Source of the DNA: Candidatus Methanorudis spinitermitis
GTDB lineage: Archaea > Methanobacteriota > Methanobacteria > Methanobacteriales > Methanobacteriaceae
DNA: 64,000 bases
Direction: 5' to 3'
Assembly (NCBI GenBank): GCA_031286225.1
Contig: JAITUQ010000038.1
Span: forward strand, 1-64,000
The translations under genes and the position numbers were made by a program. Below, piece by piece: positions 23,331 through 50,617 of this stretch (the first letter of the stretch is position 1; every line of letters begins with the position of its first letter). The notes beneath the pieces were generated by a model. It did not search any database. It saw only the letters and a list, made by a program, of their open reading frames with translations, and was not told where the DNA came from.

Positions 23331-23455
23331 TGATTTCTAAATCATATAATTATCCTATTATTTCAAAAAAATTCAATTAAATAATTTTAATAATATTTCA
23401 TTGATTTCAGATGGAGTATGCCTTTAAGTAAAAACCTATTATATTAGTGAGTAAA

Positions 23456-24253
23456 ATGATTAGTAATTTAGAAAAATACAAAAAAGATTTAGAAAATCTT
23501 ATAAATAAGGGCAATTTACTTTACTCTGCAATGTTGTCTGAATGTTATCCTAATAAAAAGAAAGAGCGTTTAAATATTAAAGATGCAGACAATGAATCTT
23601 TAGATAAATTACCAGACTTTAATTCGGAATATCAAGAATGGTATTCTGAAGCTAGTATAGTTATTAAACAACTGCTCACGGACCGTTTAGATGACTTTAA
23701 GAGTTACTATGATAAACCAAAATCTAGAAAGCAAATTAATGTTGAAAATTATTGTATAAAAGATTATTTAGATGGAATAACCGTTAGTACTTATAGAGAA
23801 ACAATTGTTGATACGAGTGCAGCTATACCAAAATTTCAACAACAATTAGCAATACTCAAATCTGTTTCTTCTCGTTTCACTAGCTCTCTTTTTGATATCC
23901 AGCAGCTTGTACAAGCAGATCTTTTTGATTCTGAATTAGATGCTGCAAAAGAATTAACTAAAAAAGGATTTATTCGTGGAGCTGGTGCTATTGCTGGAGT
24001 AGTACTTGAAAAACATCTTTCACAAGTGATGGATAACCATAACATATCTACACGTAGAAAAAGACCTACTATTAATGATTTTAACGAAACTCTAAAAAAT
24101 AATAATGTTATTGATGTTCCATTATGGAGACAAATACAAAGATTTGGAGATATTCGTAATTTATGTGATCATAACAAAAATCGTGACCCTTCAAAAGAAG
24201 AAATTTCAGAACTTATTGATGGTGTTGAAAAATTAACAAAGACACTTTTTTAA
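23456..24253 (+). CDS. HEPN-like protein next to a restriction-modification enzyme
   Basis: About 265 residues, all soluble. The N-terminal 130 residues are helical and charged (NLEKYKKDLENLINKGN, EASIVIKQLLTDRLDDFKSY). The C-terminal 110 residues resemble the HEPN/DUF4145-like group: GFIRGAGAIAGVVLEKHLSQ, then PLWRQIQRFGDIRNLCDHNK with an R-x4-H motif (R234, H239 from this start), then a helix EEISELIDGVEKLTKTLF. R-x4-6-H is the catalytic motif of HEPN RNases found in toxins and abortive-infection systems. Similar proteins often sit beside restriction enzymes. GTGAG five bases before ATG 23456 sets the start. Activity is inferred, and it could be a structural accessory. Confidence 0.6.
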   Translation: MISNLEKYKKDLENLINKGNLLYSAMLSECYPNKKKERLNIKDADNESLDKLPDFNSEYQEWYSEASIVIKQLLTDRLDDFKSYYDKPKSRKQINVENYCIKDYLDGITVSTYRETIVDTSAAIPKFQQQLAILKSVSSRFTSSLFDIQQLVQADLFDSELDAAKELTKKGFIRGAGAIAGVVLEKHLSQVMDNHNISTRRKRPTINDFNETLKNNNVIDVPLWRQIQRFGDIRNLCDHNKNRDPSKEEISELIDGVEKLTKTLF

Positions 24254-24367: not shown

Positions 24368-27112
24368 ATGTCTGCCAAACTAAGTTTAAATGAAATAAGA
24401 AATAAAGCTTTAAATTTTTCTAAAGAATGGGAAAATGAAACAAGCGAACATGCTGAATCTCAAACATTCTGGAATGAGTTTTTTCAGGTTTTTGGTTTAA
24501 AAAGAAGAAAAATAGCTATTTTTGAGCAGAATGTTAAGGTTAGGAAAGATGGAGCTTCAAAGTTCATTGATTTACTGTGGCCTGGAAATTTAGTAGTAGA
24601 ACATAAATCATTAGGCAAAAGTTTAGACAAAGCTTATAAACAAGCTGTTAACTATTGTAATGGTTTAAATGATTCTGATTTTCCACAATATATCATACTT
24701 AGTGACTTTGAAAATTTTCGTATATATGATTTAGATTCTGAAAAAGTAGAAGACTATATTCATTTTAAATTAAAAGACTTTTATAAAAATATTCATCATT
24801 TTGGTTTTATTTCAGGTTATGAAAAAATTAAGTATAAAGAATCTGATCCTGTAAACATAAAAGCAGCTGAAGAAATGGCTAAATTCCATGATAAATTAAA
24901 AGACATTGGTTATGATGGACATGATTTAGAAGTTTACTTAGTGAGATTATTGTTTTGTTTATTTGCAGATGATACTGGTATTTTTGATAAAGATTTATTT
25001 TTAATGTTTTTAATTAATAAAACAGCTTCTGATGGTTCTGATTTATCATCAAAACTACAACATTTATTCCAAATTTTAAATACTCCTGAAGATAAAAGGC
25101 TTAAAATATTAGATGAATCATTAAATGAATTTCCTTATGTTAATGGGAAACTATTTGAAGAAACACTTATGATTCCTGCATTTGATAGGGATATGAGAAG
25201 TACACTTTTAGATCTCTGTCGACTTGATTGGGCTAAGGTTTCTCCAGCAGTTTTTGGTTCTCTATTTCAATCAGTAATGGATACTGATGAGAGAAGAAAT
25301 TTAGGAGCACATTTCACATCAGAAAAAGATATTTTAAAATTGATTGATTCTCTTTTTATGAATGAATTATGGGATGAATTTGAAAGGATAAAAAATTTCA
25401 GTACTAATATAAGAGAGCATAAGTTAAATGAATTTAGAAATAGAATAGCTAAATTCAAATTTTTTGATCCAGCTTGTGGTTGTGGAAATTTTCTTATAAT
25501 AGCTTATAGGGAACTTAGAAAAGTAGAAAACGAAATATTACGACTTTTATACAGTAAAGATGGAGATACATTACAAGTATGGAATTTACAAGATTTATCA
25601 AAAATAAGAATTGATTCATTTTATGGAATTGAAATTAAAGAGTTTTCAGGGAAAATAGCTGAAGTCTCTATGTGGATGATGGATCATCTAATGAACAATG
25701 AACTTTCTAATACATTAGGTCATTATTTCATCAGATTACCTCTTTCAAAACCAGCTAATATATTAATTGATAATGCATTGCGTTTAGATTGGAGTGAATT
25801 TATAACACCTGATGATAATGTTTATATTTTAGGAAATCCTCCTTTTGGAGGAAAACAATATCAAAGTAATGAACAAAAAGAAGATATGAAAATTGTTTTT
25901 GATGGTGTTAAGTCTTTCGGAAATTTAGATTATGTTACTGCATGGTATATAAAATCAGCACAATATATTCAAGATACCAATATTCAAGTAGCATATGTAT
26001 CAACAAACTCTATTTCACAAGGAGAACAAGTAAGTATATTGTGGCAAGAGATGTACAATGAATATAAAGTTAATATAAATTTTGCTCATAGAACATTTAA
26101 ATGGCAAAGTGAAGGTAGAAACTCAGCTAAAGTATTTGTTGTTATTATAGGATTTTCACAACTTGATAAAAAAGATAAATTTCTTTTTGATTATGAAAAA
26201 CCAAATTCTGAACCACATAAAATTAAAGTAAAAACTATAAATCCTTATTTAATAGAAAATAAGGTTAAGTTTATATTATCAAGAAGAACTCCTATATCTG
26301 TAAGTCCACCAATTTCTTTTGGAAGTATGCCAAATGATGGAGGTAATCTTCTTTTAAATGAAGATGAAAAAAATAGCTTAATAAATGAAGAACATGACTC
26401 AATAGATTATATAAAACCATTTATTAGTGCTAAAGAATATTTAAATGGAATAAATAGATATTGTTTATGGTTAAAGGATATTGCTCCTTCAAAATTGAAT
26501 AGTCTTCATAAAGTTCTTGAAAGAGTGAATGCAGTTAAAGAAAAAAGATTAGAAAGTACAAGAAAAGCTACTAATGAATTAGCTAACACTCCTTATCTTT
26601 TTGGAGAAATCAGACAACCTGATAATGAGTATATTGTTATTCCAAAAACTTCTTCTGAAAATAGAGAATATATTCCCTTGTCTTTCTTTAGTAAAGATTA
26701 TATTGTAGGAGATTCTTGTTTTGCAGTTTTTGATGTTAATTTATATCATTTTGGAATATTAATGTCAGAAATTCACATGACTTGGGTAAAATATGTTTGT
26801 GGAAGGCTTAAAGGAGATTATAGATATTCTATAAATATTGTTTATAATAACTTTCCATGGCCTAATCCAAAGGAAACCCAGATTAAAAATATTAAAAAAG
26901 CTTCAAAAGAATTATTAGCTATTCGCAGTGAAATGTTAAAAGATAATTCTTTAGCTGATTTATATAATCCTCTTACTATGCCAAATAATTTAAGAAATGT
27001 TCATAAAAAATTAGATAAAGCTGTTTATAAAGCTTATGGCAAAACTTTTAAAAATGAAATGGATATAGTTAATTTTCTATTTGAACTTTATGAAAAATAT
27101 CAAGAAGAATAA
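24368..27112 (+). CDS. MmeI-like single-chain restriction-modification enzyme (type IIL/IIG)
   Basis: A 914-residue fusion of nuclease, adenine methyltransferase and target-recognition domain, cutting and methylating DNA with one polypeptide. The N-terminal PD-(D/E)XK site reads D68-X9-E78-X-K80 (in KFIDLLWPG and VVEHKS), the spacing I recall for MmeI. A helical connector follows (KAAEEMAKFHDKLKDIGYDG, LVRLLFCLFADDTGIF). The methyltransferase has motif I FFDPACGCGNF (D367) and motif IV GNPPFGG (N490), as in gamma-class N6-adenine enzymes. The C-terminal 300 residues should recognise DNA. Nothing is truncated, so it appears functional. It follows the HEPN-like gene by 114 bases, with both inserted between hisS and hisI. 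Confidence 0.9.
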   Translation: MSAKLSLNEIRNKALNFSKEWENETSEHAESQTFWNEFFQVFGLKRRKIAIFEQNVKVRKDGASKFIDLLWPGNLVVEHKSLGKSLDKAYKQAVNYCNGLNDSDFPQYIILSDFENFRIYDLDSEKVEDYIHFKLKDFYKNIHHFGFISGYEKIKYKESDPVNIKAAEEMAKFHDKLKDIGYDGHDLEVYLVRLLFCLFADDTGIFDKDLFLMFLINKTASDGSDLSSKLQHLFQILNTPEDKRLKILDESLNEFPYVNGKLFEETLMIPAFDRDMRSTLLDLCRLDWAKVSPAVFGSLFQSVMDTDERRNLGAHFTSEKDILKLIDSLFMNELWDEFERIKNFSTNIREHKLNEFRNRIAKFKFFDPACGCGNFLIIAYRELRKVENEILRLLYSKDGDTLQVWNLQDLSKIRIDSFYGIEIKEFSGKIAEVSMWMMDHLMNNELSNTLGHYFIRLPLSKPANILIDNALRLDWSEFITPDDNVYILGNPPFGGKQYQSNEQKEDMKIVFDGVKSFGNLDYVTAWYIKSAQYIQDTNIQVAYVSTNSISQGEQVSILWQEMYNEYKVNINFAHRTFKWQSEGRNSAKVFVVIIGFSQLDKKDKFLFDYEKPNSEPHKIKVKTINPYLIENKVKFILSRRTPISVSPPISFGSMPNDGGNLLLNEDEKNSLINEEHDSIDYIKPFISAKEYLNGINRYCLWLKDIAPSKLNSLHKVLERVNAVKEKRLESTRKATNELANTPYLFGEIRQPDNEYIVIPKTSSENREYIPLSFFSKDYIVGDSCFAVFDVNLYHFGILMSEIHMTWVKYVCGRLKGDYRYSINIVYNNFPWPNPKETQIKNIKKASKELLAIRSEMLKDNSLADLYNPLTMPNNLRNVHKKLDKAVYKAYGKTFKNEMDIVNFLFELYEKYQEE

Positions 27113-32659: not shown

Positions 32660-33091
32660 ATGAAAATCAAACAATTATCCATATTTTTAGAAAATAAAGA
32701 GGGGAGACTTTGGAATGCATTAGATATATTAGCTAATGATAATATTAATATAAGGGCTTTATCACTAGCTGATACATCTGAATTTGGAATTTTAAGAATT
32801 ATTGTTCAAGATCCTGAAAAAGCTAAAAAAGTACTTGAAGATAATGATTTTATTGTAAAGATAAAAAATGTCATAGGGGTTGAATTATCTGATACTCCTG
32901 GAGGACTTGCAAAAGTTTTAAAACTTTTAAATGAAAACAAAATTAATTTAGAATATCTTTATGCTTTTACCCATGAAAAAAGTGAAAAAGCTATTCTGTT
33001 ACTTCAAGCAAATGATTTGGATAGTTTAATAGGAGTTCTAGAAAAAAACAATATTAAAGTTGTTCCTTCAAAGGAAGTATACAATTTATAA
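32660..33091 (+). CDS. tandem ACT-domain protein
   Basis: A 143-residue protein with two ACT modules: residues about 1-70 (KIKQLSIFLENKEGRLWNAL) and about 72-140 (GVELSDTPGGLAKVLKLLNE). ACT pairs bind amino acids. This type commonly accompanies PaaK-like ligases and indolepyruvate oxidoreductases and probably senses aromatic amino acids. It lies 160 bases behind the ligase gene on the same strand, and a TAGGGATTAAA sequence before the ATG serves as ribosome-binding site. Confidence 0.9.
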   Translation: MKIKQLSIFLENKEGRLWNALDILANDNINIRALSLADTSEFGILRIIVQDPEKAKKVLEDNDFIVKIKNVIGVELSDTPGGLAKVLKLLNENKINLEYLYAFTHEKSEKAILLLQANDLDSLIGVLEKNNIKVVPSKEVYNL

Positions 33092-33153: not shown

Positions 33154-33417
33154 ATGGTAGAAGTAAAAAGAATTAGTGTAATTAAAATGATAATTTTCAT
33201 GTTTTTAGGAACTGCTTTATTATATTCATTATACTTAGGTGAGCGAGATATAGTTTTAGCTATTGTTGCTGGTATTTTTGGTTATATAGCTAAAGATCCA
33301 AGTGTAATCACTGATAATACAAATGATGAGGATAAATCTGAACCTATTGAAGTAGAAAAAATAACTGTTAATAAAGTAGAAACACCTAATGATGAAGATA
33401 ACTTTGTAATGGAATAG
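33154..33417 (+). CDS. small two-span membrane protein, holin-like, 87 aa
   Basis: Two hydrophobic segments (about residues 10-28, MIIFMFLGTALLYSLYLG, and 32-46, IVLAIVAGIFGYIA) are joined by a short charged turn (ERD), followed by a 40-residue acidic cytoplasm-like tail. This size and topology fits holins, though the acidic tail is long. AGGGATGAT precedes the ATG. Its stop is only five bases before the ATG of the pseudomurein-endopeptidase-like gene, so the two are translationally coupled, as in phage lysis cassettes. The holin role is inferred from context; the sequence itself has no diagnostic motif. Confidence 0.6.
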   Translation: MVEVKRISVIKMIIFMFLGTALLYSLYLGERDIVLAIVAGIFGYIAKDPSVITDNTNDEDKSEPIEVEKITVNKVETPNDEDNFVME

Positions 33418-33422
33418 ATATT

Positions 33423-34328
33423 ATGACCAATCAGATTAAAGTATCTTCTATTGTATTTGGGGACAGTATTAATAGAGTGATTGCTTGGAAAAACGAAAAT
33501 AATCAAGAAAATCCAAAAATTGTTAGTGTTAATAGTACTACGATTCAATGGAAAGAATGGAAAAATGCTTATCAAGAAATTAAAACAAATTATATAGGAC
33601 CATATACTTTCTTACATTTTTTAGACTCATATAATAGAGTTATCGAATGGAAAAATAACAATGAACAAGTAAATCCAAAAACTGTTCGTGTGAATCAAAC
33701 AACATTAACATGGGAAGATTGGAATAATTTATTTACTAATATTTTTAAAAATATTACTATAACTGTAGTTATTCCAGACACACCAAAAAAAGCAGAAGAA
33801 ACTCATATTAGTGGTATTCTCCCAGTTTACCATTTCAACCAACAAGCAATGGGTAGACCATGGGGAGAATATTGCTGTGGACCTGTATCTGCTCTTATTT
33901 GTGCATCTCATCATGATTTAGTTGATTTTAAAAATTTTCAAGCAAAAAATATTGGTTTAATAACTGCTATGAATACCAGAGTTGGATCAGGAACTAGCCC
34001 AAATGATATGGTAGCAGGTTTTAATAAGTATTTCACTACATTAGAAATGACTCCTGTAGAATTTACAGAAAAAAATTTTAAATACAATATTTTGAAAAGT
34101 ATTCCAATGGTTGTAAATGTTTTAACTGATAGTACTATTGGGTATAAGGGTAGATTTGGGCACTACATGGCAGTTACTGGATATGACAATGGAAAAATTG
34201 GAGTAAGTGACCCCCATGGATTTAACATAGGTAGAGGACAAAGATACTGGTATCCTTATAATGTAATCAAGAGAGTTCGAGATAATAATTTTGGAGGCAG
34301 ACCATTATGGGTTATCTCAAGAAAATAA
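33423..34328 (+). CDS. pseudomurein endoisopeptidase-like cysteine protease (PeiW/PeiP type)
   Basis: A 301-residue protein. The N-terminal 105 residues are two repeats of about 40 residues with 54-residue spacing (FGDSINRVIAWKNEN and FLDSYNRVIEWKNNN, each later with Thr-Thr and a Trp pair), like wall-binding repeats. The C-terminal domain has a papain/C39-like triad: Cys in GEYCCGPVSAL (C152), His in RFGHYMAVTGYD (H247) and Asp in GVSDPHG (D263). Methanobacteriales phages use C71 enzymes of this layout to cut the pseudomurein peptide bridge. There is no signal peptide, so release would need the preceding membrane protein. No other phage genes are nearby. Confidence 0.78.
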   Translation: MTNQIKVSSIVFGDSINRVIAWKNENNQENPKIVSVNSTTIQWKEWKNAYQEIKTNYIGPYTFLHFLDSYNRVIEWKNNNEQVNPKTVRVNQTTLTWEDWNNLFTNIFKNITITVVIPDTPKKAEETHISGILPVYHFNQQAMGRPWGEYCCGPVSALICASHHDLVDFKNFQAKNIGLITAMNTRVGSGTSPNDMVAGFNKYFTTLEMTPVEFTEKNFKYNILKSIPMVVNVLTDSTIGYKGRFGHYMAVTGYDNGKIGVSDPHGFNIGRGQRYWYPYNVIKRVRDNNFGGRPLWVISRK

Positions 34329-34412: not shown

Positions 34413-34922
34413 TTATTCTGAAGAGTCTGGCGAGAAGACACGACTTGCAAATTCAGAATCTACTAAAAGGATTCCATTAGAACTTTCACTAGCTAATGTA
34501 ACTTTATTCAAAACTGCAGTAGCTGATTCTTCTTCTTCAACTTGTTCTTCAACAAACCATTGTAAGAAGTTATTGGTTGCATGATCTTTTTCTTCAATAG
34601 CTAAGTCTACTAGATTATTTATTAGACCAGAAACAGTTATTTCATGAGATAAAACTTGTTTGAAAACATCAATAGGAGAATCCCATTTAAATTTTGGTTT
34701 TTCAATTGCATCTAGACTTACTCTTCCTCCTCTTCGAATGATATAATCATAAAATCTCATTGAATGAGATAATTCTTCTTGAGCTTGAACTCTCATCCAG
34801 TTAGCAAAACCACCTAAATCAGTATCTTCAAAATATGCCGCCATAGCTAAATACAAATACCCAGAATACATTTCAGCATTAAGCTGTTTGTTTAGTTCTT
34901 TTTCCATTATTTGACTTACCAT
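34413..34922 (-). CDS. ftn: ferritin (non-haem, iron storage)
   Basis: A 169-residue four-helix ferritin. Ferroxidase ligands are visible in helix A ([19 protein letters not shown]), helix B ([18 protein letters not shown]), and helix C/D ([21 protein letters not shown] with the EExxA-type end). It stores iron and removes peroxide. GGTG before the ATG sets the start. A rubredoxin gene follows upstream on the same strand, in line with an oxidative-stress role in this anaerobe. Confidence 0.96.
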
Positions 34923-35800: not shown

Positions 35801-35823
35801 GTATATTAATCTATATTTTGAAT

Positions 35824-36225
35824 ATGGATGATATAGTTGATAATAAAGATAAGTTTTTTTTGAAAGAAGAAGATGCTTTAAGGATTTTTCGAAGTATTCG
35901 TTGGGCAGATGGTGTTTATTGTCCAAAATGCAAGTCTTTCAATATTTATAATCGTGGAATTCAAGGTAATTCTAATAAATATTCTTGTAATGAGTGTGAA
36001 AACAATTTTAGTGATTTTACTAACACCCCATTTGAATATAATAAAATACCTTTAGCTAAAATAATTTACATTATAGCTAATATGAGGTCTAAAAGCATTA
36101 ATAAACTTGCAATTGAGCTTGAACTTCATAGAAATACTGTTAGTAGACATCATAAAAGGATTCGTGAATTTTTCCATAAAAAACACAGAAATTCTTCTTT
36201 TGATGGTGAAACTGAAAAGGATTAA
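35824..36225 (+). CDS. stand-alone zinc-ribbon/HTH protein, N-terminal part of an IS1595-type transposase
   Basis: A 133-residue protein. DALRIFRSIRWADGVYCPKC begins a zinc ribbon with CPKC and CNEC pairs, followed by FTNTPFEYNKIPLAKIIY and a helix-turn-helix (SINKLAIELELHRNTVSRHH). This layout matches the DNA-binding head of IS1595/ISXO2 transposases, but the catalytic DDE domain is absent, and the frame ends cleanly with a stop rather than breaking up. A strong TATA element directly precedes the start. It could be a domesticated regulator or an IS remnant. I cannot find the rest of an element in the following 377 bases. Start taken as ATG 35824 (TTG at 35818 possible). Confidence 0.75.
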   Translation: MDDIVDNKDKFFLKEEDALRIFRSIRWADGVYCPKCKSFNIYNRGIQGNSNKYSCNECENNFSDFTNTPFEYNKIPLAKIIYIIANMRSKSINKLAIELELHRNTVSRHHKRIREFFHKKHRNSSFDGETEKD

Positions 36226-50012: not shown

Positions 50013-50213
50013 TTATTTTATTTCAACAGTTTTTGGACTTCTACCCATTTCTAAAATAAATTTATTAACTCTTTCTATCATATCACTATAGTTTTCGCGA
50101 GGTATTTTCCTATTATTTATTTGAGCATATTCTGGCATTTCACCATTTTCATTCTTGAAATCCATTATACTATTAACCATTTCTCTATATTCTTTTAATG
50201 TCAAATAATTCAT
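50013..50213 (-). CDS. pseudomurein-binding-repeat (PMBR)-like microprotein, 66 aa
   Basis: Two related half-repeats: YREMVNSIMDFKNENGEMPE followed by YAQINNRKIP, and MIERVNKFILEMGRSPKTVE. The NG-x-x-P/GRSP spacing with Val/Ile and Phe before it is the pattern of pseudomurein-binding repeats in wall proteins and phage endopeptidases. It has no signal peptide and no catalytic domain, so it may be a free wall-binding domain, a remnant, or part of a two-component surface system. GTGAT before ATG 50213 marks the start; the frame is open to 50243. Confidence 0.7.
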   Translation of the reverse strand: MNYLTLKEYREMVNSIMDFKNENGEMPEYAQINNRKIPRENYSDMIERVNKFILEMGRSPKTVEIK

Positions 50214-50617
50214 AAAAATCACGATGATATTTAAAATATTCATGGACTTTAATAATATGGTATTAAATAATATATTCTACTATATAAATGATTCTATTAT
50301 TTTTATAAGTTTATTTTTCAATGGAAAATTATAAAATTAAAAATTAATTTAAATAAGCATATTATTTCATTTAGTTAAATTATATATTACTAGATAATAA
50401 TTTAAAAACAGACTTTAGCTATTATTTTTAATAAATAAGAAAAATAAATAATATTTCTTGTATTACAACTTCATATTTAATAAATAGTATTTATTGTATT
50501 ACAATTTCATATTTAATAAATAGTATTTTAAAAAAATTAAATTCCATAATTTAAGTGAATTTAGCGATTAATCCATAATTTAAGTGAATTTAGCTACTAT
50601 TAATAATAATGAATTAT
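50214..50617. repeat. 400-base spacer with two sets of tandem repeats
   Basis: TATTACAACTTCATATTTAA and TATTACAATTTCATATTTAA, each followed by TAAATAGTATTT, lie about 35 bases apart (50461 and 50497). Just to the right, CCATAATTTAAGTGAATTTAGC occurs twice in the spacing 50545-50595. They lie directly downstream of the cbiT stop codon and upstream of the microprotein gene; no ORF. Confidence 0.55.

Follow-up and report, generated by a model that had tools for sequence, protein, structure and literature searches.

Does a small membrane-protein gene that stands directly before a gene for a pseudomurein-cutting enzyme, in a methanogen chromosome and outside any recognizable virus, form a lysis cassette? 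This question is raised by a 64-kb stretch of DNA from Candidatus Methanorudis spinitermitis, which was analysed at full length and is referred to here as the window. The putative holin gene (33154-33417, + strand) encodes an 87-aa hairpin membrane protein with an acidic C-terminal tail, and the putative endolysin gene (33423-34328, + strand) encodes a 301-aa enzyme. A spacer of 5 nt (33418-33422) runs from the stop codon of the former to the ATG of the latter. The original prediction, made from the sequence alone, had placed a two-span membrane protein five bases before a pseudomurein endopeptidase at this site, and both ORFs are indeed there, on one strand; their translational coupling across the 5-nt spacer is likely. 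We consider it probable that the pair is a minimal, virus-derived, stand-alone holin-endolysin cassette in a methanogen chromosome, with a putative lysis function.

The enzyme matches Peptidase_C39_2 (PF13529) over residues 137-265 (33831-34217, + strand) at E=5.2e-7 and 30.8 bits, above the curated cut-off of 24, and has no match to Peptidase_C71 (PF12386), for which no match at E 1e-5 was found in the window genome (G000) either. By sequence it is a relative of PeiR (8z4h, E=7e-4). A Foldseek search with its AlphaFold2 model, built from 8 sequences and poor in the N-terminal half (pLDDT <50) but fair over residues 150-300 (mostly 60-88), ranked the PeiR structures 8z4h and 8z4n 1 and 2 (E ~1e-6), ahead of C39 peptidase domains. 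An alignment of 8 proteins, in which the window enzyme is compared with relatives from viruses and proviruses, shows no variation at C152, H247 or D263, and neither does a second one with IMG/VR proteins; apart from the window protein and one virus contig, the two alignments share no members. C152 aligns with PeiR Cys90, the residue mutated in structure 8z4n, and H247 and D263 with the His and Asp in the matching PeiR motifs. The Cys-His-Asp triad on which the original prediction had built its pseudomurein endopeptidase is therefore that of the PeiR/C39 class and not of another enzyme class, and PeiR is the closest protein by both sequence and fold.

The two wall-binding-like repeats that had been noticed are also real. 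Repeat 1 (33470-33566, + strand) and repeat 2 (33632-33728, + strand) are direct repeats of 97 nt each, 74% identical and 162 nt apart. The PMBR match of the whole enzyme is weak (E=0.004, below the Pfam cut-off); its closest relative, a Methanobrevibacter curvatus protein with 41% identity over the C-terminal part, passes both the PMBR (2.6e-6) and the C39 cut-offs. The host genome has 27 PMBR matches, as expected for a pseudomurein-walled cell. PeiR, which is able to lyse M. ruminantium cells, combines a C39 domain with two PMBRs (PMC6189367, PMC2812497). Like PeiR, which comes from the Methanobrevibacter ruminantium provirus phi-mru, the window enzyme has two N-terminal repeats, a C-terminal C39 papain fold and the same Cys-His-Asp positions. 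It differs in its distance (18% identity in the structural alignment), in its weak PMBR match and in the setting of its gene, beside a hairpin membrane-protein gene and outside any provirus. On sequence and model comparison, the 301-aa protein is a PeiR-type pseudomurein endopeptidase and a putative endolysin, an additional member of an already known kind of enzyme. Hydropathy reveals no hydrophobic N-terminus and hence no signal peptide, unlike a chromosomal C39 protein of a second genome (G005). The enzyme would therefore need another route through the membrane, and a membrane partner is to be expected.

The 87-aa protein has the features of such a partner. AlphaFold2 predicts a hairpin of two helices, at residues 3-28 and 31-46 (block pLDDT ~67-90), followed by the acidic tail, which is modelled at low confidence. 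A hidden Markov model built from 23 viral IMG/VR proteins, with the window protein excluded, served to search 4263 six-frame ORFs, from which it recovered the window membrane protein at E=4.7e-10 as the sole significant match in 64 kb, a protein of the virus vir075 at 3e-30, and ORFs left unannotated in the isolated viruses and prophages psiM100 (1.3e-6), PhiF3 (2e-6) and psiM2 (3.1e-6). As controls, 7262 ORFs around lysins gave 0 matches and 1937 other ORFs nothing significant; the virus Drs3 had no match. Neither Pfam nor NCBIfam offers a curated holin match for the membrane protein. Among PHROGs the best match is phrog_13825, which has no assigned function, and the holin family phrog_1129 appears at E=0.03, in 3 of 11 family members. 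Holin diversity is very high, and the absent match to a curated family lowers the holin claim only a little. Small size, a membrane hairpin, a charged tail and linkage to an endolysin gene are all holin-type features.

Viral members of this family sit beside the terminase genes. In psiM2 (L155, 3924-4178), psiM100 (L154, 10795-10953) and PhiF3 (L157, 6369-6542), the unannotated hairpin-protein ORF lies just before the terminase region. In vir075 (BK068243, 10925-11110) the family member stands in the same layout, followed by a second membrane protein and TerS/TerL, and proviruses reached through weak genome matches likewise carry a homologue directly before the second membrane protein, TerS and TerL. 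TerL is detectable in 24 of the 39 IMG/VR stretches that contain the family, as is the second membrane protein (24 of 39). This second protein combines a coiled coil with a C-terminal membrane helix and resembles XhlA at E=0.0027, below the cut-off. In psiM2 and psiM100 a Shine-Dalgarno-like sequence precedes the hairpin ORF, whose stop codon shares bases with an ATG within the annotated ORF7, the gene just before TerS, whose product has a C-terminal membrane helix; the ORF7 start is probably annotated too far upstream. Because the family stands before the terminase genes of the psiM viruses, whose holins a 2015 review reports as not identified (PMC4456609), we propose it, on sequence grounds, as a strong candidate for the psiM holin. 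We found no paper that names the family as a holin in a literature search conducted largely outside subscription journals.

The original prediction had likened the layout to a phage holin-endolysin pair, for which a search in other methanogens and in viruses gave a divided answer. In the viruses examined, the family gene is not beside the lysin gene; the two lie kilobases apart, and none of 58 lysin stretches (some overlapping) has the family nearby. In vir075, 25 kb separate the membrane gene (10925) from the lysin gene (35845), with the block from terminase to tail between them and with the same strand and order as in the window; spacing is similar in G085 and G098. In a second genus of methanogens (g15), by contrast, the membrane family does stand alone with a lysin. 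Two of its genomes encode a 113-aa family member (E=1.1e-7 with the viral-only model) whose gene ends 20 nt before that of a C71 pseudomurein endoisopeptidase on the same strand, both chromosomal (G135, L181 5774-6798; G134, L182 7065-8088). The lysin has two PMBRs, matches PF12386 at 1e-30 and finds 8z4f and 8jx4 in the PDB. In a third genome (G136) the membrane gene is intact, the adjoining lysin gene starts at the contig end and the C71 part lies on another contig. The cassette is thus found in all three g15 genomes examined, which represent three species, at one chromosomal place, and the 42 viral queries detected no viral genes in the 14-16 kb around the pair in G134 and G135. Close viral relatives of this lysin were not found.

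Nei-Gojobori dN/dS values in g15 (lysin 0.06, membrane protein 0.19-0.29, part of the neighbouring P-type ATPase 0.14) indicate that the g15 cassette is retained under purifying selection; these figures concern g15 only, the window cassette being known from one copy in one genome. Among 30 C71 stretches, the membrane family occurs nearby only in those of g15. The partner there is of the type of PeiW (psiM100) and PeiP (psiM2). These C71 pseudomurein endoisopeptidases are expected to act on the same polymer as the window enzyme and likewise have PMBR repeats and a Cys-His-Asp triad, but are transglutaminase-like, whereas the window enzyme is C39. Since C39 and C71 are different peptidase families, one membrane family has been joined to two unrelated lysins. 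That the family recurs with non-homologous lysins, each time in a stand-alone cassette, argues more strongly than any other finding for a functional partnership.

No virus is detectable around the window pair. The 42 viral query proteins, which covered capsid, tail, integrase, terminase, portal and the second membrane protein, gave 0 matches in the window, no tRNA genes were found in its 64 kb, and a repeat search of the window turned up no convincing flanking pair resembling an attachment site, in agreement with the earlier impression of an orphan. One candidate site, GAATATGA[C/T]TTA on both flanks, was dropped as chance-level in AT-rich DNA (~0.5 expected by hand estimate). For the window genome as a whole, the absence of a provirus is based on family searches: TerL (PF03237) has no match (genome ~94% complete), and the single tyrosine recombinase lies on another contig. 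The cassette is flanked on the left by an ACT-domain gene (32660-33091, + strand), 62 nt upstream, and on the right by a ferritin-like gene (34413-34922, - strand). We take the upstream neighbours to be a phenylacetate-CoA-ligase-like gene and the ACT-domain gene, and those downstream on the opposite strand to be ferritin and rubredoxin. In another genome of the genus (G105), the ACT and ferritin genes are direct neighbours in tail-to-tail orientation, separated by a short spacer in place of the cassette, an empty site. The enzyme has no single-protein match in G105 or in a further congener, G106 (both genomes incomplete). Third-position GC of the membrane gene equals that of host genes and is moderately higher in the lysin gene. 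A lone fragment of an IS1595-type transposase zinc ribbon (135 aa, 35818-36225, + strand; PF12760, 4.7e-8) lies 1.5 kb downstream of the cassette.

A tailed Methanobacteriales virus is the probable source of the genes, which may have arrived as a preformed cassette or been brought together when the capsid-tail block between them was deleted; such a loss of the structural block would preserve order and strand. Close relatives of the enzyme are rare. Single-protein queries matched it in 6 of 139 genomes, exact-pattern scans with single-protein queries for either cassette protein found no close relatives in IMG/VR or GTDB contigs, and a two-sequence pattern query returned only M. curvatus. The M. 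curvatus lysin gene (NZ_LWMV01000105; L008/L009) sits with baseplate, tail and integrase genes, and no head genes were recognised. The element spans ~14.0-30.3 kb of that contig, comprises tail, baseplate, lysis and integrase genes with a shortened tape-measure gene, and is either a degraded provirus or a tail-only element. As in the window, the related enzyme is preceded there by a two-helix protein, in overlapping frames; unlike in the window, the cassette lies within a degraded provirus and its membrane protein is non-homologous. This 77-aa protein had been considered as a homologue of the window membrane protein and was rejected after a direct test. Two other genomes hold remnants: a broken integrase with lysin fragments (G014) and a lysin gene with stop codons (G010).

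If the window genes are expressed, we propose that the 87-aa protein would insert into the cell membrane as its predicted hairpin, accumulate there and, judging from linkage, size and topology, open the membrane in the manner of a class II holin. The enzyme, presumably made in the cytoplasm given its missing signal peptide, would escape through the hole and bind the pseudomurein wall by its two N-terminal PMBR-like repeats. Its C39 domain may then cut wall peptides, as the conserved triad and the PeiR fold suggest, and the cell would burst. The lambda S-R and PBSX XhlA-XhlB-XlyA modules likewise consist of small membrane protein(s) and a cytoplasmic endolysin; the window cassette follows this plan but is archaeal, with a holin-like protein that has no recognised sequence homology to theirs. 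Both stand-alone cassettes are without the XhlA-resembling second membrane protein that follows the family gene in methanogen viruses. A bacterial parallel is DLP12 of E. coli K-12, a defective prophage with holin, endolysin and spanins whose role has been tested (PMC7918800). There, too, lysis genes from a defective virus are kept in the host chromosome, whereas the window cassette has two genes only and a putative role.

Several other explanations would account for parts of these observations. That the pair occurs in one genome only would fit an assembly join, in which a piece of virus contig was misplaced in the chromosome. Both flanks are syntenic with G105, which simply lacks the pair, so a join is unlikely; with a 121-kb contig, a window free of viral genes, host-like GC in the membrane gene and only moderately higher GC in the lysin gene, we find it scarcely credible. 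Remodelling of the wall, which the original prediction had offered as one use of the pair, would make the enzyme a host hydrolase for growth or division and the small protein its membrane anchor or export helper. Secreted C39 proteins are common in the host's family, and so are long wall proteins that are C39/C71-like, but the chromosomal C39 relative has a signal peptide and the window enzyme does not, matches in so few genomes are unlike a housekeeping function, and the partner family is viral; this part of the prediction is disfavoured and looks improbable, whereas its enzyme class, its holin-endolysin-like layout with viral relatives for both genes, and its isolation from any provirus all stand. 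The lysin could also be a lysin and its neighbour some other virus protein, an antiholin or an entry or exclusion factor, adjacent by chance. The missing curated holin match would suit this, as would the viral habit of keeping the family gene beside terminase genes and the second membrane protein instead of the lysin gene. These two points also count against our main reading, as do the unrelated two-helix protein before the M. curvatus enzyme and the below-cut-off PMBR match of the window enzyme. The lambda lysis genes, however, also precede the terminase genes, the topology is that of a hairpin, and at two separate stand-alone loci the family gene immediately precedes, on the same strand, a lysin gene, the two lysins being non-homologous. 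We judge a chance neighbour unlikely.

A stand-alone holin-endolysin cassette, our preferred reading, may be idle or in use. It may be the inert last trace of a provirus, two genes left by deletions that have no present function and will decay. Degraded stages in relatives (M. curvatus without detected head genes, G014, G010) are what such decay would leave, absence from G105 and G106 implies that the cassette is recent or often lost, and order and strand match a provirus of the vir075 layout with its middle removed. Yet neither ORF is disrupted, the spacing is tight, what remains is precisely the two lysis-type genes, and in g15 the pairing with another lysin is kept by purifying selection. 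We give the inert trace considerable weight, somewhat short of an even chance. The host may instead have domesticated the genes as a programmed-lysis or abortive-infection system and burst on a signal such as virus challenge, starvation, or DNA or vesicle release. For this speak the g15 cassette, in 3 of 3 genomes at one place with a lysin dN/dS of 0.06, and the precedent of DLP12; against it, the window pair has no adjoining regulator or sensor gene, no PADLOC match and a single known copy in its species, and, with 62 nt between it and the ACT gene, the pair may be transcribed by read-through and not under control of its own. A scan for sigma-70 promoters and terminators relied on bacterial models and was uninformative for an archaeal host. 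Domestication is a possibility that we entertain with reserve. The weights given to the rival readings are not exclusive: both of these accept the main mechanism, and what divides them is whether the cassette is still used.

What is new here is that a holin-endolysin-like gene pair stands alone in an archaeal genome and has a counterpart in a second genus. How endolysins of pseudomurein-methanogen viruses pass the membrane is a standing question (PMC4456609), for which the window and g15 pairs point to one family. Placed ahead of the terminase genes in numerous methanogen viruses, this family offers a holin candidate that can be tested directly. Should the host be keeping the g15 cassette as a function of its own, methanogens would have a chromosomal lysis system; this would bear on the release of DNA and vesicles and on methane-control tools, in which PeiR is already employed. 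As a speculative generalization, methanogens may repeatedly keep the hairpin holin with any available pseudomurein lysin (C39, C71) as programmed-lysis cassettes, the hairpin family being the missing holin of pseudomurein-methanogen viruses.

Other observations concern lysin-like genes elsewhere and the rest of the window. In the congener G106 (C23, L107 8963-10336), a 457-aa lysin, which differs in its N-terminal domain and includes a C39-like part, is encoded alone among housekeeping-type genes, with no viral genes detected. C71 lysin-like genes in chromosomal-type surroundings, without the membrane partner, occur in G110:C6 (L188 1369-1935) and G104:C62 (L212 1192-1893). Within the window, a Type IIG restriction-modification enzyme (24368-27112, + strand; PADLOC model, 1159 bits) follows a 268-aa ORF (23447-24253) that has no PADLOC match. 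Finally, a 76-aa ORF (50013-50243, - strand) consists almost wholly of two PMBR repeats and looks like a pseudomurein lysin cut back to its N-terminal part, the catalytic domain being absent; it may be the remnant of a lysin or a protein that binds the wall on its own.
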